From contig JAFLCB010000011.1 in assembly GCA_017302795.1 (NCBI GenBank), positions 1 to 64,000 of the forward strand: DNA of 64,000 bases, given 5' to 3'. The notes beneath the pieces were generated by a model. That model was not told where the DNA came from. It did not search any database and was given only the letters and a program-made list of their open reading frames with translations. The position numbers and the translations under genes are program-made. This document shows positions 12,791-27,807 of the stretch, piece by piece (position 1 is the first letter of the stretch; the number at the start of each line of letters is the position of its first letter). The DNA comes from Deltaproteobacteria bacterium. Its GTDB lineage: Bacteria; Bdellovibrionota; Bdellovibrionia; Bdellovibrionales; JAMPXM01.

Positions 12791-12834
12791 TGCGACGTCC
12801 AGAGGCCGAAGCGACACAAGCAACCAAAATAAAA

Positions 12835-12860
12835 ACCTCCCAAGGGGAGGTCTTTTTATT
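12835..12860 (-). terminator. Terminator of tRNA-Arg
   Basis: Minus strand: ACCTCCC, short loop, GGGAGGT and then TTTTTATTTT. The hairpin spans 12835-12851. It is also T-rich on the plus strand (12852-12861), so it can work in both directions. Confidence 0.7.
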
Positions 12861-12861
12861 T

Positions 12862-12937
<76 letters not shown>

Positions 12938-13028: not shown

Positions 13029-16000
13029 TCAAAGTGCCTTTGCGGCCTCGTAGTCGGCCGGAATCTTATAGCCTGATTCAGCGGCCATTTCGCGCAACGT
13101 GCCGTCGAATTGGTCGACGGGGGAAGTGCCAAGCAGAGGTACAGTCGGAGCCGGGCGGTTAGAATAAAAGCGCCACGACGGGAACACCAAGGGCTTGTCT
13201 TTGCGTAAAGCTTCTAGTCGCTTGGCCTCTTTAATCGTTTTCGTCAAAAGCGCAATTTGCGTATCGACGCGACGACTGTAGAACCCATTCAACATCGACA
13301 TGGTCGTGGTGGGGATTGCCAGCGCGGGTTCGCCTAAAGATCGCATGGCTTTCATATGGCCTGTGAACTCCATAATCGGACCTGCCCGACTTAAACCACG
13401 TTGCTGTCGACTGTCTTCAGAAACCAGATCGCCAAGCCGATCAGCCGATAGCTTCGTGTAAACGAAATCGAAAAGACCAAGCCAGGTTCGACTACCTTTG
13501 TTCCACGCATAATCATCGAGCACCATATCAAGGTAGGGCAGTGTAAAGCGTGAGGTGACGGTCATGACGTAGGCCATTGTTTCATCCAGCTCGAGCGCTT
13601 TGAGCATCTCAAGCTGAGACTTGAGTAGCTCGGGTATTGAAACTTGCTGTATTCCGTCGCTCGTTTCTTGAGGCCCCGCCTTTGCCATAGCCACCAGAGA
13701 TTCAATACGAACCAAAAAGGCGATCAATTTGTTTGAGCGATCAGCCCAGGACAATACGTGATCACGATGATTAAAAATCAACTGCAAGCCGAAGTCGACG
13801 AAAGCTTTTTCTTCTTCCATCCAAGGGATCCTCAGGTCTTTTTCGCGAAGCGACTGGTTAAAGTCCTGCAAATCATCCGGAATAATAATCGAATTGCGAT
13901 CCCTCATTGGACCAAACTTGCGATCATTCGACTGATAACCTTCTTGAAGAATGTCAGCGACACGAAGTAGCGCCTGAACGCGCGAAAACCGATACCCGTC
14001 TGCGTTATAACCAAGGGAACGCTCGTGGGAAGCGAGACCTTTTATTGAATACTTTTTGCTGAAGCCGAATTCTGGCGCAACAGTTTTGTCGGCGCTGTTA
14101 GTAGCACGACGTTTTGTTATCTGCCGATGGACCTCTTGAAAGTGTGCCATTAGGCCGCGGATCGCGTGGCCTTGGGCCTCGATTTCACCCCTAAGGAGCG
14201 CTTCGCCGCAGGCTGACGTGTTCTTGTGGATTCGGAAGATTCTAGAATAGGTATCTTTCCTCATGTCTTTAAGAGGCTGGATTTGAGAGTCGATGGCCTG
14301 AAGCTCTTGAGCGCCATTCTCAACTGTGTGACGTTCAAAATGAACGCGAGTGAGGTCTCGAAACATTTCGAGCATTTCAATTTTTGGGGTCAGCTCGAGG
14401 CGGATCGTTTCCATGTTGTCGTCTAGTCGAAGACGAGTTAATTCACGTTCAGTTTCATAGAATGTAAATGCATTAAAGAAGGTTTCATCCAAAAACAGAT
14501 TTCCGCCGCCGCCTTGTGGAAATCCCATGAGGGCATAGTTTTCTAGGTTCACGATTGGCATTCGGGTGGTGGCGTAAACTGGGTTGCCCGAAGCTTTACG
14601 TTTCTTTTGTTCTTCGCAAATTTGTTGAAACTCAACGGCTTTGGCCGACGTTTCGAATTGAGCTCGGAACGCACGATTAATTTGGGCGACGTCTTCTCGG
14701 AGCTTGCCTAGCATTTGCTCGTTAAGCATTTTGAACAAGGTGGCCAGATTGATGCCGCCCCCGGTGTGAATTCCCATCTCGATGGCGTAATGATAAACCA
14801 ATGCAATTTCCGATTTCGAAATCGGCTGTTGGTCATTTCCATAGGGAAGCCATGGCGCTAGTTCGCCATTGAAAAACCATTCTAGGATTTTTCCTGCATC
14901 AATTTTAAAAATTCCGGTCCAAGTGTAGACTTTCAAACTGAATTTCAGGCGCGCCAGGTGGTAACACATCACAAGCATGCTAGGGTAGGTCGACAAAAGT
15001 TTAATATTACGATCAAGTCCGGCGAAAAAAAACGTAAGGTCCTTGGCGACTTTGTCGCTTTCTTGGTAACCGCGAAAGTTCTGATCGTGAAAGGTGTTTA
15101 ACAGTTCAAACTTTCCTATTGCTTCAGCCCATTGGACTTGGCCTCGAAGGCTTTCTTTGATGCCTTCTTGAAACACGTCCGCTGTAGAAAATCGTCCTGG
15201 CGAGTTGAAAAAGCTGATCAGAATTTGATTCACATCTTGTGATGTTACGAACAGACGGTTGCGGACATAGCTTAAAAGCTCCTGTTTCATCTGCAATTGT
15301 AAAGCAACTCGCTCCTCGTTTGATTTACCAGATAGAAAGGTTTCCCAAAATATTTTTGCTTCTTCTTTGGTTAGCTTTTGCAGCCATAAACCTTCGAACA
15401 AAAATGTAGAAATTGTTTTCGGAACTTCGGTGCGAAGACCCAAGCTTTCAATGATCTTCGGACGCGCCAGCGTTGTCGGCTGAAGCTTTGTCCTCAGCGC
15501 ACGCGGATCTTTCTCGAAGCCGGCGATCGCCTTATTAAGCGCATCCCCTTCAAATAGGCGTTGGCCGACAAGTTGGAGTATGACTTTTTCCCTAAGGCTA
15601 TTCTCTTGGCTACGTGTACGTTCGAAATTCCAGATATCGAAACTTCTAGCGAGCTCGTCGAGGACCGACTTTTCGACGATCAAGCCTCTGGTTGGGCTAA
15701 CAAAATCTAGCAAGAGCTGATCCACCAACTCCTTGTGTGTTGCAAGACGAAGGCGTTGTGCTGGCGTCATTGGTTCGCCCAGCGACTTTTCATATTCAAC
15801 CGCCGTCAGCAAGTAAGCGAGGGTTAGTTCGCGATTTTCTTTTTCGTTGAGGAACGTATGGGCGAGACGGAGAAGTCGATAGCGTTCGGCGAGCTCTGGA
15901 TTTTCAGATTTTACATACTCCATCAACAAGGGAACCGTTGTCTCATTTTGCTTAAAAAAATGAAGATATCGGCAGCCTGTCAGGTCTTCGCGGCAGCCGC

Positions 16001-16358
16001 CTAGAACGGCTTTTGTAAAGGTCGCAAGAAAGCTCTGACGAATTTCATCCTTGCTGGGAAGGGAAAGTACCATCGACAAAACTTTTTTTGAAAGTGCGTA
16101 AAGTGAGTTGCGATCACTGGTCGATAGTTTTCGAAGATCGGCTTCCATAGCTGAAACCTTCAGTCGGTTTTGCCATTGCGTAAGAAGCGGGCCTTTTTCT
16201 CGATGTACATCGAGATCCGCCGAAACGTTAGGTTGCGGGGAGTCTGAAGTTTCGGTGCGCGCGTTTTCATGTTCGTTCTTGATAGTCGATTGACGATCGC
16301 AGCCAGTCGCTAGGATCAGACTCGATATTGTCAATAAAAGGGCGAGAAGTTTGTTCAT
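13029..16358 (-). CDS. Giant lipoprotein, paralogue of the 17317 gene
   Basis: 1109 aa. Signal MNKLLALLLTISSLILATGC, with the Cys as likely lipidation site. The rest is mainly helical with no transmembrane segment. Residues 450-509 align without gaps to residues 521-580 of the protein at 17317-20871 with 33 of 60 identical (RNIKxLSxYP ... WFFNGxLAP ... GND), and similarity continues in a helical part after it. The start shares one base with the upstream stop (TAATG). It is the last gene of a five-gene operon. No known domain recognised; probably a structural or substrate-binding part of an envelope complex. Confidence 0.7.
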   Translation of the reverse strand: MNKLLALLLTISSLILATGCDRQSTIKNEHENARTETSDSPQPNVSADLDVHREKGPLLTQWQNRLKVSAMEADLRKLSTSDRNSLYALSKKVLSMVLSLPSKDEIRQSFLATFTKAVLGGCREDLTGCRYLHFFKQNETTVPLLMEYVKSENPELAERYRLLRLAHTFLNEKENRELTLAYLLTAVEYEKSLGEPMTPAQRLRLATHKELVDQLLLDFVSPTRGLIVEKSVLDELARSFDIWNFERTRSQENSLREKVILQLVGQRLFEGDALNKAIAGFEKDPRALRTKLQPTTLARPKIIESLGLRTEVPKTISTFLFEGLWLQKLTKEEAKIFWETFLSGKSNEERVALQLQMKQELLSYVRNRLFVTSQDVNQILISFFNSPGRFSTADVFQEGIKESLRGQVQWAEAIGKFELLNTFHDQNFRGYQESDKVAKDLTFFFAGLDRNIKLLSTYPSMLVMCYHLARLKFSLKVYTWTGIFKIDAGKILEWFFNGELAPWLPYGNDQQPISKSEIALVYHYAIEMGIHTGGGINLATLFKMLNEQMLGKLREDVAQINRAFRAQFETSAKAVEFQQICEEQKKRKASGNPVYATTRMPIVNLENYALMGFPQGGGGNLFLDETFFNAFTFYETERELTRLRLDDNMETIRLELTPKIEMLEMFRDLTRVHFERHTVENGAQELQAIDSQIQPLKDMRKDTYSRIFRIHKNTSACGEALLRGEIEAQGHAIRGLMAHFQEVHRQITKRRATNSADKTVAPEFGFSKKYSIKGLASHERSLGYNADGYRFSRVQALLRVADILQEGYQSNDRKFGPMRDRNSIIIPDDLQDFNQSLREKDLRIPWMEEEKAFVDFGLQLIFNHRDHVLSWADRSNKLIAFLVRIESLVAMAKAGPQETSDGIQQVSIPELLKSQLEMLKALELDETMAYVMTVTSRFTLPYLDMVLDDYAWNKGSRTWLGLFDFVYTKLSADRLGDLVSEDSRQQRGLSRAGPIMEFTGHMKAMRSLGEPALAIPTTTMSMLNGFYSRRVDTQIALLTKTIKEAKRLEALRKDKPLVFPSWRFYSNRPAPTVPLLGTSPVDQFDGTLREMAAESGYKIPADYEAAKAL

Positions 16359-17320
16359 TAAAACCTCGCCGACAGGCCAAGCGATAAGATTCGTCGATAC
16401 TCATCGACAAACCACATCGAAGTTTCGCGATCTTCCGCCCGAGAACCATTTGAATGGCTTAACGTCACAGAGAATTTTCCATCGGTCCAACTTAGACTTT
16501 GAACGTTCGAAAGTGCCGATGTGTTTGTTCCGTCAAAGTGCCGAATGATTCGCGCAGTGCCGCCGGCTCGAAACCGAAATCCAGATCCGAAACGAATTGT
16601 TCCGAACGCCGAATAGCCGACTGATCCGTCGGAGTTAACTTCTCTAGACACAGGACTGTATTCATACTGATTTACTATGTAGTCAGCAGAGACGGTCTGC
16701 ATAATTCCGTACCGCCCACCTTGGAACAGTAACGCCCAAGTAAGAGAGGCGTAGGGAACAGCCGATATTCCTTCATACTGGGAGGCGAGGGAAGTCGGCA
16801 GAGAGAGTCCACCGGTTGTCTCCACAGAACTTTTTCCGCCCCAAATCGAATTGAGTTTGAATCCCCGAGAGACAGAAAGGTCTAGGTCCGAAACTTCTGC
16901 AGGGCCATTTCCGCCAGTGGCGTCGATTTCGTTCGCAACGGTCGTCATCTGACCGCCAATCATTGCGCCGAAGGTTGCAAGCTCATCAGCGAACTCGTCG
17001 TCGAATCCTTTGATCACGGGGCGATCTAAAAGTGTCACGGTCATGGCGGCAGAGAAGCGATGAGTTGCTGACTTTGGCTCTCGCGCCTGCGCAAGATCCT
17101 GTCGCACGCTGTAGCTCAGAAGGGAACTGATATCCAGTCGAGTGCGCTCTGCGGAACGCACGTTGACAGTGGTCATCGCCGACTTCTGTTTTTTGCCTTC
17201 TTCATCCAAAGGATTGCCGGTAAGAGAATTCCTCGACGAACGCGCTTGTGCCTGCATGACGCAAGTCATGCTAAGTAAGGCTGCCATTCCTAGGAAGGTG
17301 AGCGGCCGGCAAACAATCAT
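16358..17320 (-). CDS. Outer-membrane beta-barrel between two giant lipoproteins
   Basis: 320 aa. Signal peptide (RPLTFLGMAALLSMTCVM, then QAQA). The mature chain is made of alternating strands (ISSLLSYSVRQDL, FSAAMTVTLLDRPV, FRFRAGGTARIIRHFDG, FSVTLSHSNGSRA) and ends SLGLSARF; a C-terminal Phe is typical of barrel assembly. It overlaps the upstream gene by 4 bases (ATGA) and the downstream gene by 1. It may be the membrane pore or anchor to which the flanking giant lipoproteins attach; that is inference from gene order. Confidence 0.7.
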   Translation of the reverse strand: MIVCRPLTFLGMAALLSMTCVMQAQARSSRNSLTGNPLDEEGKKQKSAMTTVNVRSAERTRLDISSLLSYSVRQDLAQAREPKSATHRFSAAMTVTLLDRPVIKGFDDEFADELATFGAMIGGQMTTVANEIDATGGNGPAEVSDLDLSVSRGFKLNSIWGGKSSVETTGGLSLPTSLASQYEGISAVPYASLTWALLFQGGRYGIMQTVSADYIVNQYEYSPVSREVNSDGSVGYSAFGTIRFGSGFRFRAGGTARIIRHFDGTNTSALSNVQSLSWTDGKFSVTLSHSNGSRAEDRETSMWFVDEYRRILSLGLSARF

Positions 17321-20300
17321 CGATTAGCTCCGCCGGAGGGTCGCTTCGCTTTATTGAATTCATCACCGGTTTCGCGATCAAAGAGAGTTCGGGTCGTAGC
17401 GAAGTCATCTATTTTCTGCTTAGAAAGATAGATTGGCGTCCTACCACTTTGAAGTTCAATCTTCGTTGCGGCAATACCGGAAGGTTTCAGTTCATAGGAG
17501 TATTCAATGAGCTTTCCAGACTCTGCATCTTTTGCTTCTTTCGCGTTGATCGCTTTAATCAATGCGTTGCCTCGACCGAAATAGTTGTCGACTGATGGCT
17601 GAAAACCTTGGCTTACCTTCTCTCGGAACTTTTCCTCCGGAGAAAATAAGAATTCACCGATTGAGCGATTTGTGAGGTTGAAGTCGCGCGCTTCGTCGAG
17701 AAGTGTTTGGTCTTCTGTCAAACCGTCGAGGAGGGTTTCAAAAATAGTCAAAGGATCGCCGTTTTCATCCAACAAAAACTTCTTAAGTTTTTCGCGATCC
17801 CAGCGTGTTGTCATGCCGATCAATTCAATCAGCCGCGTATCTTTTTTCGGCTGCCCGTTTTCAGTTAACGAAAGTGTGCGAACGATGCTCGCGGATTGCG
17901 CAACGAGCTCTTCAGCCGTGACCTGGTAATCGTCCTTAATTGGACACTTCGTAACATCCGCTTGCCCTTTGCAGGACTCTGACGTCGTGTCGTAGATCTT
18001 CATTTTGCCGAGTTTATAAAGCTCGGTTAGAATTTTCAGACGGCCAATGTAAGTGGTTGGATCACTTGTGTTTCCCACCCAAGACATGATGGATTCAGAT
18101 GTGTCATCGAAATTCTTCATTCCGGCGTGCACAAATTCTTCCTCTGAGCTTGAATAGGGAATCACGCGTCGACCTTCCGATTTCCAAATGCTGCTATCGG
18201 AAAGATCAGAGGGCAGGATGACATCAACATTTGGCGCCACTTTTTTCACGTGTTGAATCATGCGCAAAGTGACGTCGAGATCTGCATAAACGTAGTTGTC
18301 TTCCGTTGCGACGCTCTTCGGAATATACGGTTTCGAACTTTGAATTCCAGAAGCGCCTGTCGATTGGACGATGTCCTTGTTCAGCTGCGTAAGCAAGGCA
18401 TCTTTGTTCTGGGAACCACGTGCTTTTTTGATTTCAGCCCAGACTGTTCGCAAGTGTTTCTCTTCGAGCGATAGTATTTCGCCCTGTCGTTCGATTTCGA
18501 TCGCCACTGCTTGGTCGATGCAGTTCGAAAGAGTTTTATTCCACCTTACAACTTCAGTTAAGAATTCTGCGCGAAGGCGCTCTACCGAAGTCGTGAATGC
18601 GGCGATCTGGTCGCGAACTTTCGTGATGTCAGATTGCGATGAACCCGAGCTCGTCATGTGGACTTCTAGGAGTCCTGTCATGATGGAAACGAATTCGAGT
18701 TTTGCGCGCAACGAGGAGTTCAGCGACATAATTGTCTCGGCCCGACGTTCGTTGTGAAACTGGAGCGCCGCTTGACCGTGTCCACCAGAGGCCGTTGTGC
18801 CTACATAGGTGCTATACTTGAATGCCCAAAGATCTAGCGGAAGTCTGGCGCCAGCAGTTCCTGGCTTTATGCTCTTGTTCATAAGGCTGCGATCTTGTTC
18901 ACAAGTCTTTAGGAATGTATCCATCGTGTTTTGCCGAGTTTCTTTTCTGATTTCATCGATCGCGTTTGAAATCGCAATCCGTTCTTCATCAAGAAACTTC
19001 CCAATGACGACCTCAAAAAACTTTACGACGTCCATACGCTCGCCTCTGGACACCGAGAATGACGCAAAGGTGTCCGTTTTGAGTGCGAACAGGAAGGCGT
19101 ACAGAGTCTCAATTCGTTTTAGAGGTACCCCGTCATTACCAAAATTGAAGAACGGCGCAAGCTTTCCGTTGAAGAACCAACCAATGATCATGGCTGTGTC
19201 GATATCGACTTTCCCAAAAAAGGTGTAGACCGGAAGTTTGAACTTAGATTCTGCCATATAATAGGCCATCAACATCATATTTGGATAAACTGAGAGGTAC
19301 TTGATGTTGCGGCGGATGCTCGTAAACATCTTATCAACTTTGCTGAATTCCGACGCTCCCCAAATGTCCTCCGTCGATTTCAGATTTCGGTCTAATAGTA
19401 AATGAATTCGCTCGATGCGACCAAGAAGTTGGTTCCACTGAGTTTGTACTGGGTAAGACCGTTCAATCGCCTTTTCGAGAAGAGTGGTGGAGGACCAATC
19501 GCGGTTTGAATAGATATCGGCCATGTACTTGTTCGTGCGAACAATTTGGGCCGCAATCTGAATCTTCACGTACTGTTCGGCAACCAGCAGTAGGGCTTTT
19601 GAATCTTGTCGCGTCCCACGCCAAACTTCGCTTCCATCTTCAATGGTCAGGTGATCGCCGAAGACGCGATCAATTAAAAAGAAGTATTCATCTCGCTTGA
19701 AAGAATCGTTAAGCCCGAGATTTTTCCATATCGCCGGCTGACGTTCGCGAATATGTTTCGAAACAATTGCAAACGATCCATCCAGACCATCAAACGCTTT
19801 TTGCTCGAATTGAAACTGGTCCACGCCTGACGGCGCCTTAGGAATTTCCTGCGATTCTTTAATCGCTAGTTCTAACGACGATGACAGGCTTTTTCCATCA
19901 GACGTGTAAAGGAAATTTTTTGAAGCTAGTGAGAGCATGCGCGTAGCGGCACGTCCAAATGGGTTCTCGCCGCGACGTGAATAGCGCCAAGGGCCAAAGT
20001 TGTTCACGAACGATTCAAAGCGTTTTCGAAATTCTTGATTCGACAGGTCCGGATTAAATCCGGCGAGGATTGTTTCAAAAACTTCTACATGCTGAGCCAG
20101 AAGTTCGCGCTCGCGTGAAGTGGGAATTTCCGAATCGAACGCCTCCGCGTACTGCGATGCTCGAGCAAGATAAAGAAATTCTAACTCGCGATCCATGGTT
20201 CGGTTTTTAAGTTCGTACGCCATTTTTAGACGGCGATAATAGATGCGAACGAGATCGTTTTTTAGCTTCTTTGATGCAGAAGTTAACTTCAACGATTGAT

Positions 20301-20871
20301 CGATCTCAGCCTCGACCTCACGCGCCGATAGCTCCATCACCTTTGAAGAGCCAGTGTCTCTTCTAAAAAACGAAAGAATTGCTTTCGAACATCCGGCGCC
20401 GGTTCCATCGCAACCGCTTTCAATTACGACCCGAGTTTTCTCTATCCAAGGTGCCGCTGCTTTTGCGTCGATTTGCGCAAGTCCCTTGGTCTGGCTATCG
20501 CCAACAAGAGCCCGCATGAACACAGTCAACGCCTGACGCATTTTTGGTGAAGAATTCATTCGCTCGTTTTCCACATAGGTGCGATCAAGTATGAATGGTG
20601 CCAAGGCCGTGAGAGCACCGATTTTGTCCGCTGTACCGGCGTTTGAAAGTTTAGCGTTCAGCGAGTTGGCGTCGATTTTTTTGAATGCCTCAATGTCCAC
20701 CTTTTCGGTCGCGGGCGCGATGACTATTTCGTCCGAGCGCACGGGACCTTCGTGTTGCGTGACCGGGACATCGCGGTTGGTACACGCCACAAGAATTTGT
20801 GTCGCTAGGAGCACCGTCGCAATCGTTTTTATCGCTTGAAGCTTAAAGAAGACTTGATCTGTATTTTTCAT
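17317..20871 (-). CDS. Giant lipoprotein, paralogue of the 13029 gene
   Basis: 1184 aa. The N-terminus has a hydrophobic stretch ending ATQILVAC, a good lipobox. The ribosome site AAAGGAG is strong. The protein is long and mostly helical, with charged coiled-coil-like parts (about 740-800), no membrane segment, and few Cys. Residues 521-580 match the sister lipoprotein (33 of 60 identical). It follows the metalloprotease after 15 bases and overlaps the barrel gene. No family recognised. Confidence 0.7.
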   Translation of the reverse strand: MKNTDQVFFKLQAIKTIATVLLATQILVACTNRDVPVTQHEGPVRSDEIVIAPATEKVDIEAFKKIDANSLNAKLSNAGTADKIGALTALAPFILDRTYVENERMNSSPKMRQALTVFMRALVGDSQTKGLAQIDAKAAAPWIEKTRVVIESGCDGTGAGCSKAILSFFRRDTGSSKVMELSAREVEAEIDQSLKLTSASKKLKNDLVRIYYRRLKMAYELKNRTMDRELEFLYLARASQYAEAFDSEIPTSRERELLAQHVEVFETILAGFNPDLSNQEFRKRFESFVNNFGPWRYSRRGENPFGRAATRMLSLASKNFLYTSDGKSLSSSLELAIKESQEIPKAPSGVDQFQFEQKAFDGLDGSFAIVSKHIRERQPAIWKNLGLNDSFKRDEYFFLIDRVFGDHLTIEDGSEVWRGTRQDSKALLLVAEQYVKIQIAAQIVRTNKYMADIYSNRDWSSTTLLEKAIERSYPVQTQWNQLLGRIERIHLLLDRNLKSTEDIWGASEFSKVDKMFTSIRRNIKYLSVYPNMMLMAYYMAESKFKLPVYTFFGKVDIDTAMIIGWFFNGKLAPFFNFGNDGVPLKRIETLYAFLFALKTDTFASFSVSRGERMDVVKFFEVVIGKFLDEERIAISNAIDEIRKETRQNTMDTFLKTCEQDRSLMNKSIKPGTAGARLPLDLWAFKYSTYVGTTASGGHGQAALQFHNERRAETIMSLNSSLRAKLEFVSIMTGLLEVHMTSSGSSQSDITKVRDQIAAFTTSVERLRAEFLTEVVRWNKTLSNCIDQAVAIEIERQGEILSLEEKHLRTVWAEIKKARGSQNKDALLTQLNKDIVQSTGASGIQSSKPYIPKSVATEDNYVYADLDVTLRMIQHVKKVAPNVDVILPSDLSDSSIWKSEGRRVIPYSSSEEEFVHAGMKNFDDTSESIMSWVGNTSDPTTYIGRLKILTELYKLGKMKIYDTTSESCKGQADVTKCPIKDDYQVTAEELVAQSASIVRTLSLTENGQPKKDTRLIELIGMTTRWDREKLKKFLLDENGDPLTIFETLLDGLTEDQTLLDEARDFNLTNRSIGEFLFSPEEKFREKVSQGFQPSVDNYFGRGNALIKAINAKEAKDAESGKLIEYSYELKPSGIAATKIELQSGRTPIYLSKQKIDDFATTRTLFDRETGDEFNKAKRPSGGANR

Positions 20872-20886
20872 CGCAAATCTCCTTTG

Positions 20887-23800
20887 TTACTTAGTTGCAA
20901 GTTGGTCGAGGACTTCTGGAAGCCAGTAGCCGTTTATCAGTCCCGCAGCGGATACGATCACACCGACAGCTTCAAGAGCTCGATCGCATCGTTCCTGAGT
21001 TGGACCTTTGCCGTCCGCAGTGGTTCGCAGCTTATAATAAGTCGCGAAGTTTTCGTTGATCGACTCGAAGAACTTGATCTGCTTGGTTTGGTCATTGGCA
21101 ATTCCGTCCATGACAAAGAAGCCTTCAAATTTTGCCTCTTGGCTACTAAAGAAGCTTTCAAGACCGTCGTTGTCTCCGCGAATACAAGTGTCTAGTGCAG
21201 ATTTATGAAGATCCTCGAGCTTTGTTTTTACGCTATGAGCAGCGAGGACATCGTCATAAGCCTTGTCGTACTCGACCGCATAAGCCCACACATAGGCTGT
21301 CTTGTTATCGAGGAACATCGGCTGTTTTGAAATCGGGAAGACAAAGTTTTTACTTTGCCCGCGAACGATCAACTTTCCACCTGGCAGCAGAAACACCTGA
21401 CTCAATGATGACGCTTTTCCGCTTTGTGGATCATACAAAGCACCAACTAGCTGGGTCGCCCTTGTTGTATCACCGCGGTTTTGCATTTCGAAAATGACCG
21501 CTTTTAATGAAAGGCGGAACTGAGTTTGGTTGCGAATGCTTTCGATGAAGTCTTTGGGCATCCTGATCGCGTCGTTACCCATCGACTGTTGGTCGAGAAA
21601 GTATCCCAGAGAAAGGACGGGCAAGCCAATCGACGCACTTTCGCCGCGCTTCGGTTCTGTCTTAATGTTTTTTTCCAGTGCCGATGCGAGGGCCGACGTA
21701 AATTCGCGAGAATAAAGAGTTGAATAAGAGAACAGACCGTCTTGGCCAGAGTACCGAGGAATTGGGAACATCCACCCACCAAGCATGGTGTAGGGATAGG
21801 GCGTAGTCAGAACGTTGACCGCAGCAAGCTTGAGAGGAAACACAGACAGTGTCGAATACGTGCCGAAGACTCGCGAGTAGTCGGTCCATCCGTCGCCGCC
21901 GATCATTTGCGCCGAGATAGAAGCATTGTCCCAGTTCATTCGCGTGCGATCCGGTCCCGGCGTGTTTAGCAGGATTGTGATTTCCGACATGACTTTTTTA
22001 TTTACGCGGCAGAGCTCTTTTAGCTCTGGCTTGCGTCGGAAAATGTCTTCCAGCGTGGCACTACCTTGCATTTCGCCCGAACAGACTCTTGAAAATTCGT
22101 CGAGATCTCGTTTGCTCTGTGAAATCGTGCGAATTTCTGGTTCATACTTTTGGCGCATGTAATCGTAGAAAATTCGAACGCGTCCAAGAGCCCGAAGCGA
22201 ATAAAACCAGAGCGAACCTTCGGCATATTCAGGATCGGAACCGGTCGCGTCAGTGAACGCATGGATTCGAGCAACTTTATTGATATTGAGGTCGTCAAAG
22301 TAGCTAGATACGATCGTGTCCGCATCAAAACCTCGATCAAACCGATTGCAATATGGGTCCGCAGAGAACGAAGCATGAAAGTCGTTGCATTGCGGGAAAT
22401 ACGACGTTTCAAGTTCTGGTTTTTCTGGATGCCGATCTGGGATCAAGCCGCTTGCCGGAAGCTTGGCAAAGGTAAAGTCCTCTTGCTGACTCCCGCGTTG
22501 GAAAGTCGGGAATTCCATATTGTAGAGATACCGTAGCGTCAGTTCGTCTTGATACCCCGGCGCTATGTGTTCGTGGGGCGTTAGGAGTTCGGTCACTGGA
22601 TGACGGTAGCCCATAACAGACGATGCGTTTGTCATGTTAGCTGCGGCCCGTTTTTCCAGTTCAGCTACATACTTATTCGGCAGCGACCCTTTTTCAGGCA
22701 AAATGTTCTCTTTGAATTGGTGACCGAGGCCAAGAAAATGGCCGTACTCGTGAAGGATCAATTCTTTGATGACCTTCTTAAGGCCATCTTCGTAGCCGAC
22801 TTTTGATTGCGCAATTCCTTCCGCAATCATGGGGCCTACGTCAACAAAGCGGCGATCCAGGTCGTGTGTGACGCCGTTGGTAAGGCGCTGCAGCTGATCG
22901 GCAGTTGAATAATTGATGCGGCGAAGTTTTTCGCCGAGTCCGAGTTCTGCGCTATCTGCTCCGAAAATGGATTCGCGTGCCTGATTGCTTGGGCCTTGAA
23001 GGAAACCAAACAGTTGTGTTTTGTTTTTATTCAAGTCCACTTTGTTGGAACGGATTTGCAAATCTTGAAGTGTCGAGCGTAGCGACAACATCATGCTTTC
23101 AGCTTGCGCTGAAGACATTTGTTCGGCCATGCGCTGGCGTTCGCCATCTGAAAGAGATTTAGCAGGCTGGCCTTTTTCGTCGCTTTTTCCAGAAGCTTGC
23201 GCTGCCAGATTCTGAAGGTTTCGTTTCAAAAGAAACTGCGCAGTGGAGGCTTGCAGCACGTTAGAAGCCCCACCCGCACGGAGGCCCTCATTCATCGCGG
23301 CTGAAAATGTGGTCAGCGCTTTGGGATGAAAGTAAGTCTCGAAGGGATTTGGAGAAATCGACGACCGAGCAGCCTTTTTTGCTCCGGGTGATTTTGCGAA
23401 GCCACTTGCGCCACCGCCAGAGGACTCGAGGTAGCCTTTGACGTAGCTTTCTAGGTATCCACCGTACAAAGTGATTTGGCCCCACAAGATTTCGCCGTTG
23501 CGAACATCCGCAGCCGCCATGCCGATTCCAAGCGGTGACACTTCTGAAATCTGTTTGTCATCAACCCAAACCATCATTGGGTACCGAAGATCGAACGGGT
23601 GCTTCATCGGCTTTTTGTTAAGTCGAAAGGCTTTGGGGCGTTTTTTCGATGGATTGTTTTTGTTTGGATCGATTGTTTCGAAAGTTTTATTCCACTGTTC
23701 GACTACGTCTTCCGCAACGGGAACATACTCCTCTGGAAACCCGTGTAGGTAGACGTCGTGAGTTTTTGAAAGATCCCACTTCGCTGCCGACCATACCTGC

Positions 23801-24690
23801 TGAGTGCCCTCGCGTTTTTCTCCTATGACATGAAGTGCATTTAGGAACTTCGAGTTCTTAGTGTTGTAAGGAGTTTGCTTAAATTCTTTATTGTGTTCGA
23901 AGGCTTTAAAGTTAAAGCGAATGCGCGCGCCAATTTCTGCTCCCCACGACGGGTTGTGGACAGATGCGGTGAAGGCAAAAAAGCCAGAATCTTTGTCCCA
24001 TTCAATATCGTCGACCTTTGTGATCCGGCCATCGCGAGAATTAAAGAACATCGCCATGTCCCAATCTTGAATAGAGAGGCGATCAAGGCCGAGATCCATC
24101 AAGGGCCGCGCTGAATAATGCGATCGAGAAGAATTTTTCACCATCTCGTTAGTGTCGCGGCCGTAAGAATCCTTTGCGCGCTCATAGTAGTAATGATTGT
24201 CGATAGGAATAACGATCGCCTCTTTCCAGCGATTGCGGTGCTTAGGGTCATCGCCGTTTGGAAAAGAGGGATTTACGAGGCGGCCGATAAGGGCGCTGTT
24301 GGTGATTTCGAATTCGATATTGCAATGGTTTGTCATGACAGCCGCATGCGTGAGCCAAGCCGACGCAATCACGCCAGTTTCAGAAATTGGAGCCCAACCG
24401 CAAACGAACGTGCGTCGCTTAACGATATTTTTTACGACATTTGATTTTTTACCGCCGACGTCCTCGGTTGTATTGATTGTTGCGACCTGTTCGAAAAACG
24501 TCTTTTCGATTCCTGTATTGTCTGTTGAATCAACTGGAGGTGGGGTTTCGGTTGACGGCGTGCGGATCGTACATGCTGATACGAAGACAAGGGTCGCCAT
24601 CACTGCCAAAGCAAACGAGACTTGTTTAATTTTAGTCATTTTGCTGTTCATTCGTTGATCCTTGGTTCGCGGTTGCGGGTAAGTTTTCAT
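20887..24690 (-). CDS. Giant metzincin-type zinc metalloprotease lipoprotein
   Basis: 1267 aa from ATG 24690. A lipobox ends at VSAC. H647-E648-Y-G-H651-F-L-G-L-G-H657 is the extended zinc site HEXXHXXGXXH; a Met-turn (SSVMGYRH) follows about 50 residues later, placing it with the metzincins. Long N- and C-terminal parts (about 600 residues each) have no recognised domain. The start overlaps the upstream stop by 4 bases (ATGA); an alternative ATG at 24651 has a better ribosome site (AAGGA) and a shorter signal peptide. It probably cleaves proteins at the cell surface or in the periplasm; substrate unknown. Confidence 0.82.
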   Translation of the reverse strand: MKTYPQPRTKDQRMNSKMTKIKQVSFALAVMATLVFVSACTIRTPSTETPPPVDSTDNTGIEKTFFEQVATINTTEDVGGKKSNVVKNIVKRRTFVCGWAPISETGVIASAWLTHAAVMTNHCNIEFEITNSALIGRLVNPSFPNGDDPKHRNRWKEAIVIPIDNHYYYERAKDSYGRDTNEMVKNSSRSHYSARPLMDLGLDRLSIQDWDMAMFFNSRDGRITKVDDIEWDKDSGFFAFTASVHNPSWGAEIGARIRFNFKAFEHNKEFKQTPYNTKNSKFLNALHVIGEKREGTQQVWSAAKWDLSKTHDVYLHGFPEEYVPVAEDVVEQWNKTFETIDPNKNNPSKKRPKAFRLNKKPMKHPFDLRYPMMVWVDDKQISEVSPLGIGMAAADVRNGEILWGQITLYGGYLESYVKGYLESSGGGASGFAKSPGAKKAARSSISPNPFETYFHPKALTTFSAAMNEGLRAGGASNVLQASTAQFLLKRNLQNLAAQASGKSDEKGQPAKSLSDGERQRMAEQMSSAQAESMMLSLRSTLQDLQIRSNKVDLNKNKTQLFGFLQGPSNQARESIFGADSAELGLGEKLRRINYSTADQLQRLTNGVTHDLDRRFVDVGPMIAEGIAQSKVGYEDGLKKVIKELILHEYGHFLGLGHQFKENILPEKGSLPNKYVAELEKRAAANMTNASSVMGYRHPVTELLTPHEHIAPGYQDELTLRYLYNMEFPTFQRGSQQEDFTFAKLPASGLIPDRHPEKPELETSYFPQCNDFHASFSADPYCNRFDRGFDADTIVSSYFDDLNINKVARIHAFTDATGSDPEYAEGSLWFYSLRALGRVRIFYDYMRQKYEPEIRTISQSKRDLDEFSRVCSGEMQGSATLEDIFRRKPELKELCRVNKKVMSEITILLNTPGPDRTRMNWDNASISAQMIGGDGWTDYSRVFGTYSTLSVFPLKLAAVNVLTTPYPYTMLGGWMFPIPRYSGQDGLFSYSTLYSREFTSALASALEKNIKTEPKRGESASIGLPVLSLGYFLDQQSMGNDAIRMPKDFIESIRNQTQFRLSLKAVIFEMQNRGDTTRATQLVGALYDPQSGKASSLSQVFLLPGGKLIVRGQSKNFVFPISKQPMFLDNKTAYVWAYAVEYDKAYDDVLAAHSVKTKLEDLHKSALDTCIRGDNDGLESFFSSQEAKFEGFFVMDGIANDQTKQIKFFESINENFATYYKLRTTADGKGPTQERCDRALEAVGVIVSAAGLINGYWLPEVLDQLATK

Positions 24691-25061
24691 TTTCCAGTAG
24701 CCGGTATTTCTAATTTTCCAGGCATATTTGAACTAGCCGTTGCCGGATCGACACTGGATAAATCAAAGCGCCTCGCCATGTGCGTGCGTTGGTCGCCGGC
24801 TCCCTTTGGAAGAGGGGTGCCATCAATAGAGAAGGCAATTGGATTAGGGGCTGAATGACCGGCGGAGATCCCGGAGGATTGGAACATGGATGGACGCCGC
24901 GCCTCTTCGGCTGCGATTCCAAAGAAGGTTGCGATGAATAGCAATAGGAGCCAAAAGCTGACGACGTCGGAATCTGCGTCTCCGTTAGTTCGCGCGTCAC
25001 GATTGCTTTCCACCTGATTTTTCGAAGCATCGTTGTCCTGAAAATCCTGAGGATTCTTCAT
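24687..25061 (-). CDS. Small single-pass membrane protein heading the envelope operon
   Basis: 124 aa. The first 30 residues are very polar (Asn, Asp, Lys), followed by one membrane helix (VVSFWLLLLFIATFFGIAAEE, about 35-52) and a Ser/Pro-rich extracytoplasmic tail. ATG 25061 has GGAAGGA 6 bases upstream; an ATG five codons earlier lacks one. It overlaps the metalloprotease start by 4 bases. No family recognised. By topology it may be an inner-membrane anchor or assembly factor for the downstream lipoproteins. Confidence 0.6.
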   Translation of the reverse strand: MKNPQDFQDNDASKNQVESNRDARTNGDADSDVVSFWLLLLFIATFFGIAAEEARRPSMFQSSGISAGHSAPNPIAFSIDGTPLPKGAGDQRTHMARRFDLSSVDPATASSNMPGKLEIPATGK

Positions 25062-25343
25062 GCGTGGTCCTTCCATCGTACCCGATCCAACGTTGATTCA
25101 TGTTCAAGCGGTGGGCCGCATAAGATTCGGTGCTGTCGAAAACTTAGACGTCTAAAATAATTCGGTTTTTTTGATTTCTGTCGCTCGTAGTGAATCTCAG
25201 CGAGGCCTGATTCGGCTCTTCGCGGATGAAGACTGACAAAAAATGGCGCGCGGTACTACGCTGGCACCGAGGTGCGCTAACCCCTCGGTTTCTAGGGAAG
25301 TTTTAGGTAGCCTTCGGCTTATACTCGTGGCTAAGCTTTCGAA

Positions 25344-26057
25344 GTGAAAGAAATTGAAGCAGCCAATTTAAAAACTCGTGTACTAGTTGTCGAAGACGAA
25401 GCGGATATTCGCCGCATTTTAAAAGAGCTGCTTGAAGCGCAAGGCTTTTATGTCGTCGACCTGTCTTCCGGACACGCGATTCTTCATCAAATCGAACTTC
25501 ATAATCCCGATGTGCTCTTGGTTGATCAGATGATGCCAGGGATAACAGGAGTCGAAATTATCGCCCAAGTACGCAAAGACGGTCGTCACGCCAATCTTCC
25601 GATCATCATGGTCACAGGTCTGAGCGGTGAAGAAGACAAGGTGAAAGTTTTAAATCTAGGTGCCGATGACTATGTCACGAAGCCGTTTTTGCCAAAAGAA
25701 TTGGCTGCGCGGATCAATGCTTTGGTTCGTCGAACGGCGGCGCGAGAATTAGCCTCGAAGAGCGAACCCCAAGAACTTATTCGGGGTGATATTCGAATCG
25801 AACTCCGCTCCCATCGTGCATTCGTTGGTAGCGAAGAAGTGCAGTTGACACTCACTGAGTTTAAAATTCTGCGTGAGCTATTGAAACAGGTGGATCACGT
25901 TTTGACTCGCGAACAACTTCGAGAGCGAGCACTCGAGAGTGTGAACGTTACCGATCGCACCATCGACGTGCACATGGCGTCGCTCCGTAAAAAAATGGGC
26001 CCCATAGGTGACACCATCGAAACCGTTCGTGGCGTAGGCTACCGCCTCGCCCGCTAG
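25344..26057 (+). CDS. OmpR/PhoB-family response regulator
   Basis: 237 aa. Receiver domain (about 11-125): E17-D18, phospho-acceptor D61 in LLVDQMMPG, T in MVTGLSG, K in VTKPF. The C-terminal winged helix (about 145-237) has LTLTEFKILRELL, REQLRERAL, TIDVHMASLRKKM and RGVGYRL, the classic DNA-binding pattern. The start is a GTG with no clear ribosome site, so the N-terminus is uncertain. There is no kinase gene beside it, so it is an orphan. It is divergent from the envelope operon at 25061 and could control it through the 282-base gap. Confidence 0.92.
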   Translation: MKEIEAANLKTRVLVVEDEADIRRILKELLEAQGFYVVDLSSGHAILHQIELHNPDVLLVDQMMPGITGVEIIAQVRKDGRHANLPIIMVTGLSGEEDKVKVLNLGADDYVTKPFLPKELAARINALVRRTAARELASKSEPQELIRGDIRIELRSHRAFVGSEEVQLTLTEFKILRELLKQVDHVLTREQLRERALESVNVTDRTIDVHMASLRKKMGPIGDTIETVRGVGYRLAR

Positions 26058-27102: not shown

Positions 27103-27807
27103 ATGGGGAGAATGACGAATTCAGAACCGCAGACTTTAACATTCAGGCAGGCCGCCGGGCGCGAGATCGGTCGCCTATTGAAGCGAAAAAAGCTTTATGC
27201 AAGCTTGCTTCTTGCCGGTTTAGCATTGATCACACAAGCCTGTGCTCCCCAAACCTCACCACAGGCCTCGTGCAACTTTGTTATGAGTGGCGAAAGTCAG
27301 CGTGTTTCGTGGGGGCCATCGACTCCTGTTATTCTTTATGTCGATAGCTCGGTTCCTTCCGAGTTCTACGATGCAATTCGCACAGCCGTCATGACCTGGA
27401 ACCAATCGCTAGGTCGCGAAGTATTAAAAGTTGGTGGGTGGTCATCAGCGTACCCGAACGAAAAGCAAGATGGCGTGAACGTTATTTATTTCAATAAATC
27501 GTGGCCAGAAACTCAGCGGGAAAAACAGGCCGTCACCACAATTTGGTGGGCGGGTGACCGAGTGTATGAAGCAGATATTCGTGTGAATGGTGTACCGTCT
27601 CATTTTCAATATTTCTGGGGCCCAACTCCCATCGATGGACGCGTAGATTTTGAATCACTCCTTCTTCATGAATTAGGGCACGTGTTGGGACTTGAGCATC
27701 CTAAAGTGGAAGCCTCCGGTACCGTCATGGCGCGGCGTTTGAATGATGCTCAGTTGCGACGCACCCCTACGTTGGAAGATGTGGGTGACTTGAAGTGCGA
27801 GTACTAA
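27103..27807 (+). CDS. Matrixin-like zinc metalloprotease lipoprotein
   Basis: 234 aa. The signal KKLYASLLLAGLALITQAC gives a lipobox. The catalytic site HELGHVLGLEH (about 196-206) and the Met-turn GTVMARRL are those of matrixin-type (M10) metzincins; the N-terminal part has the usual strand text TPVILYVDSSVP and AVMTWNQSLG. Start codon choice is uncertain: ATG 27103 and ATG 27112 lack a well-spaced ribosome site, and a TTG before KRKKLYAS would give the most compact signal peptide. It is smaller than and unrelated in context to the giant protease at 20887, but shares the zinc site class. Confidence 0.85.
   Translation: MGRMTNSEPQTLTFRQAAGREIGRLLKRKKLYASLLLAGLALITQACAPQTSPQASCNFVMSGESQRVSWGPSTPVILYVDSSVPSEFYDAIRTAVMTWNQSLGREVLKVGGWSSAYPNEKQDGVNVIYFNKSWPETQREKQAVTTIWWAGDRVYEADIRVNGVPSHFQYFWGPTPIDGRVDFESLLLHELGHVLGLEHPKVEASGTVMARRLNDAQLRRTPTLEDVGDLKCEY

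Follow-up and report, generated by a model that had tools for sequence, protein, structure and literature searches.

A conserved Bdellovibrionota gene cluster encoding a predicted giant metzincin lipoprotein and two paralogous giant lipoproteins

The window, which is the whole stretch of 64,000 nucleotides analysed here, possesses five closely packed genes on the minus strand, designated A to E from the 5' end. Gene A (24687-25061) encodes a predicted single-span membrane protein of 124 aa, or of 129 aa when the ATG at 25076 is taken as the start. Gene B (20887-24690) encodes a predicted giant metzincin lipoprotein of 1267 aa, with its lipobox cysteine at position 40. Genes C (17317-20871) and E (13029-16358) encode the first and the second giant lipoprotein, of 1184 aa and 1109 aa with lipobox cysteines at positions 30 and 20, and gene D (16358-17320), encoding an outer-membrane-barrel-like protein of 320 aa, is situated between them. 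The lipobox sequences are VSAC in B, LVAC in C and ATGC in E. A and B overlap by 4 bases, B and C are separated by 15 bases, C and D overlap by 4 bases and D and E by a single base. The spacing, and the three lipoproteins of more than 1100 residues each with a lipobox, are thus as the preliminary description of this DNA had given them. A tRNA-Arg(CCT) gene (12862-12937, minus strand) lies directly 3' of E, and a terminator-like hairpin followed by a T run (12831-12855, minus strand) is located 3' of both.

Upstream of the operon, two divergent plus-strand genes were found, encoding an OmpR-type response regulator (25344-26057) and a small matrixin-like lipoprotein (27103-27807; PF00413, E 1.3e-5). 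The same two genes adjoin the operon in three other loci (L032, L034 and L037), and they are possibly its regulator and a second protease. In L032, L034 and L035 the tRNA-Arg gene occupies the corresponding position. The position of the operon is kept within the family of the window, while in the loci inspected outside this family the flanking genes are not conserved. An integrated island, suggested by the tRNA gene, was rejected as a general explanation, since this gene is part of the synteny of the family and the other operons scanned showed none next to them.

B was searched against 141 genomes of the order, and profiles of C/E and of B were searched against 369 Bdellovibrionota genomes. 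Strong C-type proteins were detected in 21 of the 369 genomes, distributed in six families and fifteen genera, and every one of these 21 genomes also contains a strong B. Strong B without C was observed only in two genomes (G167 and G091), in both cases at a contig end. Scanning the genomes of 84,980 species for the B pattern gave matches only in MAGs titled as Bdellovibrionota lineages. In a neighbour test, C followed directly after B in all the fetched loci whose contig continues (29 of 29), and in the three loci without C after B the contig stops 0-166 bases from B. Complete B-to-E loci, counted by hand from the locus maps, number 24 including the window, and all of them contain both C and E. 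The preservation of this order across six families is more than chance. The preliminary description had proposed a single operon and had set scattered homologues without order as its refutation beforehand; the phylum search found an ordered cluster instead of such scattering.

Of the complete loci, 14 have D between C and E, one (L053) has it ahead of B and nine lack it; D is thus dispensable in some loci. Near the D-less operons examined, no other barrel was seen to take its place. Homologues of A were found only in three loci of the window's genus (L032, L033 and L037). B, C and E therefore constitute the core, with D as a frequent partner and A as a local addition. Of the five-gene composition described earlier, the constant association of B, C and E is retained, whereas A and D are not essential parts of it. 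Several divergent subtypes co-occur in individual genomes, the maximum being four, in G076. Some subtypes are common to distant families (L053 with L132, L045 with L131), which reflects either transfer or ancient paralogy. Among the window and twelve relatives, mean identity was 34% for B, 22-23% for C and D and 17% for E, and in each operon pair listed B was more conserved than C, followed by D and E. The highest identity of B is consistent with a conserved enzyme having faster-changing partners.

The HEXXHXXGXXH zinc motif noted in the preliminary description was located in B as HEYGHFLGLGH at residues 647-657, and a Met-turn-like segment, SVMGY, follows at residues 691-695. Sequence comparison showed the zinc motif to be intact in every operon-type B member read over that region, and in the alignment the Met-turn residues M693 and Y695 and the cysteines are invariant across operon-type B proteins. 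The undegraded zinc site in all the operon-type members read over it argues that catalysis matters. By its zinc site and Met-turn-like segment, B is assigned to the metzincin clan. The zinc region aligns with the Pfam Met-zincin family DUF4953 (PF16313) at E 0.011, its 15.4 bits lying below the gathering cut-off of 24.2, and relatives of B from a wider family match DUF4953 at 1.6e-11 and 6e-6. B differs from DUF4953 in having a long insert ahead of the catalytic helix and N- and C-terminal regions without assignment. Archaemetzincin was obtained as a weak local sequence match.

The structure of B was modelled as a single chain covering residues 68-1267 (pLDDT 78, pTM 0.75). The N-terminal part of the model is beta-rich, and a variable insert of low confidence, at about residues 420-640, precedes the catalytic helix. 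Comparison of the model with solved structures gave no global match; the likeness seen was local, to an astacin-type protease and to lipocalin-like barrels. For the catalytic-domain fold of metzincins the matches were weak and local as well, e.g. that to myroilysin (TMt 0.20). B resembles the astacin, matrixin and archaemetzincin metzincins in the HEXXHXXGXXH motif and the Met-turn, but it is far larger, is lipid-anchored as judged from its lipobox, is encoded in an operon with putative scaffolds and has no global sequence or fold match to them. Soon after the lipid cysteine, conserved positions (ETPxP...KxFF) are found in a linker which is otherwise variable.

C and E share 23% identity across 887 columns (BLASTP E 2e-45), in agreement with the paralogy noticed earlier. 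In a tree of 55 C-family proteins, the labels for first and second position change 2 times, compared to 16.4 in shuffles; the tree was built quickly and includes several long branches, which leaves fine placement unsure, but the separation is far from chance. The near separation of the first- and second-position proteins indicates that the C/E pair is ancient, the duplication having occurred before the operon spread, with both copies retained. Such retention of both proteins would be the pattern expected for two different subunits. The structure of C, predicted with AlphaFold2 from a 38-row alignment, is nearly all helical (mean pLDDT 85, pTM 0.73) and includes a long helical segment at residues 708-837. 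A Foldseek search of the PDB with this model showed no meaningful fold match, the best having E 7e-4 and TM 0.11, and a resemblance to importin/HEAT-type proteins was rejected as the matches were generic helical ones with TM about 0.1. In the PDB sequence-profile search, C gave coiled-coil matches to spike glycoproteins, which were rejected as chance, and C has no Pfam match.

A histidine at Cys+10 after the lipobox is found in 37 of the 57 C/E proteins, again in linkers otherwise variable. These conserved positions past the lipid cysteine in B and C/E may represent a docking or sorting signal. A similar histidine after the lipobox was seen in a 241 aa lipoprotein which is otherwise different from C/E (L114, 1429-2154). 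The lipoboxes together with the conserved cysteines indicate an extracytoplasmic location for B, C and E. In E, the residue immediately after the lipid cysteine (+2) is aspartic acid. An aspartic acid at +2 favors inner-membrane retention of lipoproteins in E. coli, a rule which may not be that of Bdellovibrionota. By this analogy, the residue is a caution against placing E in the outer membrane.

D has a signal-peptide-like N-terminus and a C-terminal end, ...LSLGLSARF, with a terminal phenylalanine; a simple test of the D sequence by itself for amphipathic strands gave z 1.2. Profile-profile comparison by hhalign matched D with the barrels adjoining wider-family metzincins (probability 99%, E 7e-18). 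The preliminary description had placed a barrel gene between the two lipoproteins. Its position is as described, and D is better termed barrel-like, by homology to a family whose own matches to outer-membrane barrels are all sub-threshold.

A clear gap was observed below the scores of operon-type B proteins, with the next best match at 5.6e-28, followed by many giant metzincin ORFs of about 900-1700 aa throughout the phylum. This wider family is also present in the best-sampled genus, f3 g11, which is probably Bdellovibrio. Of the 59 wider-family metzincins examined, 48 have a barrel-profile gene no more than 300 bases away on their own strand, and the barrel family itself was found in 216 of the 369 Bdellovibrionota genomes. 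In the reverse sample, 16 of 20 fetched barrels were near a giant ORF containing HEXXHXXGXXH, and two of the four remaining were on contigs ending nearby. As the neighbouring barrels are homologous to D and the metzincin-barrel pairing is phylum-wide, the operon of the window is an elaborated form of this pair. That this pair exists across Bdellovibrionota in the absence of C and E had escaped the preliminary description. A variant cluster in six loci (L061, L062, L143, L161, L164 and L184) consists of a lipoprotein of 650-750 aa, a metzincin of about 950-1030 aa and then a D-like barrel; profile comparison of the lipoproteins from three of these loci showed no relation to C/E. In another locus of the window genome's family (L207, 4862-6847), a barrel-family domain is included within a 661 aa ORF, and a weak B-family ORF overlaps it upstream.

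All five proteins were searched against Pfam, NCBIfam, PHROGs and PADLOC, and none scored above the cut-off; the anti-phage defence models of PADLOC gave no match. Sequence-profile searches of B, C/E and D against the PDB returned chance-level or local matches only. The open-access literature searched, on metzincins, metalloproteases and operons of Bdellovibrio and Bdellovibrionota and on DUF4953, does not describe the system. The earlier statement that no named system has this composition therefore holds for these four databases and these papers. Bd3137 is mentioned in papers only as resembling zinc metalloproteases, with no link to the operon established. Predatory proteases of B. bacteriovorus (Bd2269 and others) are described as secreted in the consulted portion of one source (PMC12546842). 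They resemble the operon in phylum and in extracytoplasmic proteolysis, but that portion describes no link of them to a lipoprotein-barrel operon. The enzyme belongs to a known clan, and membrane-anchored metzincin proteases are a known kind, while neither the gene composition nor the C/E fold has a known counterpart.

The reading which we favor, tentatively, is that the operon specifies a metalloprotease complex tethered to the outer membrane, with C and E as a heteromeric scaffold and D as the barrel, which would cleave extracellular or surface proteins. B, anchored by its N-terminal lipid, would act as a metzincin-clan zinc endopeptidase. The likeliest role of C and E would be that of a heteromeric scaffold or a substrate-guiding cage around B, and D may anchor B in the outer membrane or help its passage to the cell surface. 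The targets, cleaved on the cell surface or beyond it, would most likely be prey, host or own surface proteins. Catalysis, the outer-membrane and surface location, the physical complex and the substrates are all points which we infer. A more general proposal, possible but doubtful, is that Bdellovibrionota have a machine class of their own in the outer membrane, composed of a metzincin lipoprotein and a dedicated barrel and joined in some lineages by a giant-lipoprotein heteromer of new fold, which would cleave selected proteins of partner cells or surfaces and would have diversified into several subtypes per genome.

The extracytoplasmic location drawn from the lipoboxes and paired conserved cysteines would also suit a complex which faces the periplasm, serving as a protease in the envelope for the maturation or quality control of outer-membrane or peptidoglycan-linked proteins. 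Large helical scaffolds fit the periplasm, and D is dispensable at some loci. However, the patchy distribution (21 of 369 genomes), the several divergent subtypes per genome and the fast-changing C/E proteins are unlike housekeeping, and we regard this explanation as rather unlikely. The phylum-wide pairing of lipoprotein and barrel genes also recalls Slam/type XI secretion, in which surface lipoprotein exporters similarly combine a barrel gene with lipoprotein genes (PMC9100927, PMC5449769). By this comparison, the operon would be an export or display machine, with D as a translocation or assembly barrel, C and E as holding chaperones and B as the cargo or a cargo trimmer, and the conserved residues past the lipid cysteine in B and C/E could serve sorting or docking. 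D and its relatives differ from Slam in having no DUF560/Slam Pfam match, and the barrel gene is missing from several operon subtypes and from 9 of the 24 complete loci, which makes an export function improbable. Finally, C and E could be surface recognition proteins of a contact or attachment apparatus, with proteolysis secondary. This agrees with the rapid divergence of C and E and the several subtypes per genome, but it is the most improbable of these explanations, as no adhesin domain or repeat was found, the helical model of C has no known adhesive folds, the members read over the zinc site all retain it undegraded and no finding points to attachment specifically.

The favored complex would represent an apparently undescribed, conserved proteolytic module, probably of the outer membrane, in a phylum noted for its predatory bacteria. 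C and E present a helical fold without a solved relative. Bdellovibrionota genomes encode many uncharacterised secreted and surface proteins, among which the metzincin-barrel pair is a testable candidate for surface proteolysis. Its simple two-gene form also occurs in genomes of f3 g11, a genus which is probably Bdellovibrio and in which deleting genes may be feasible.
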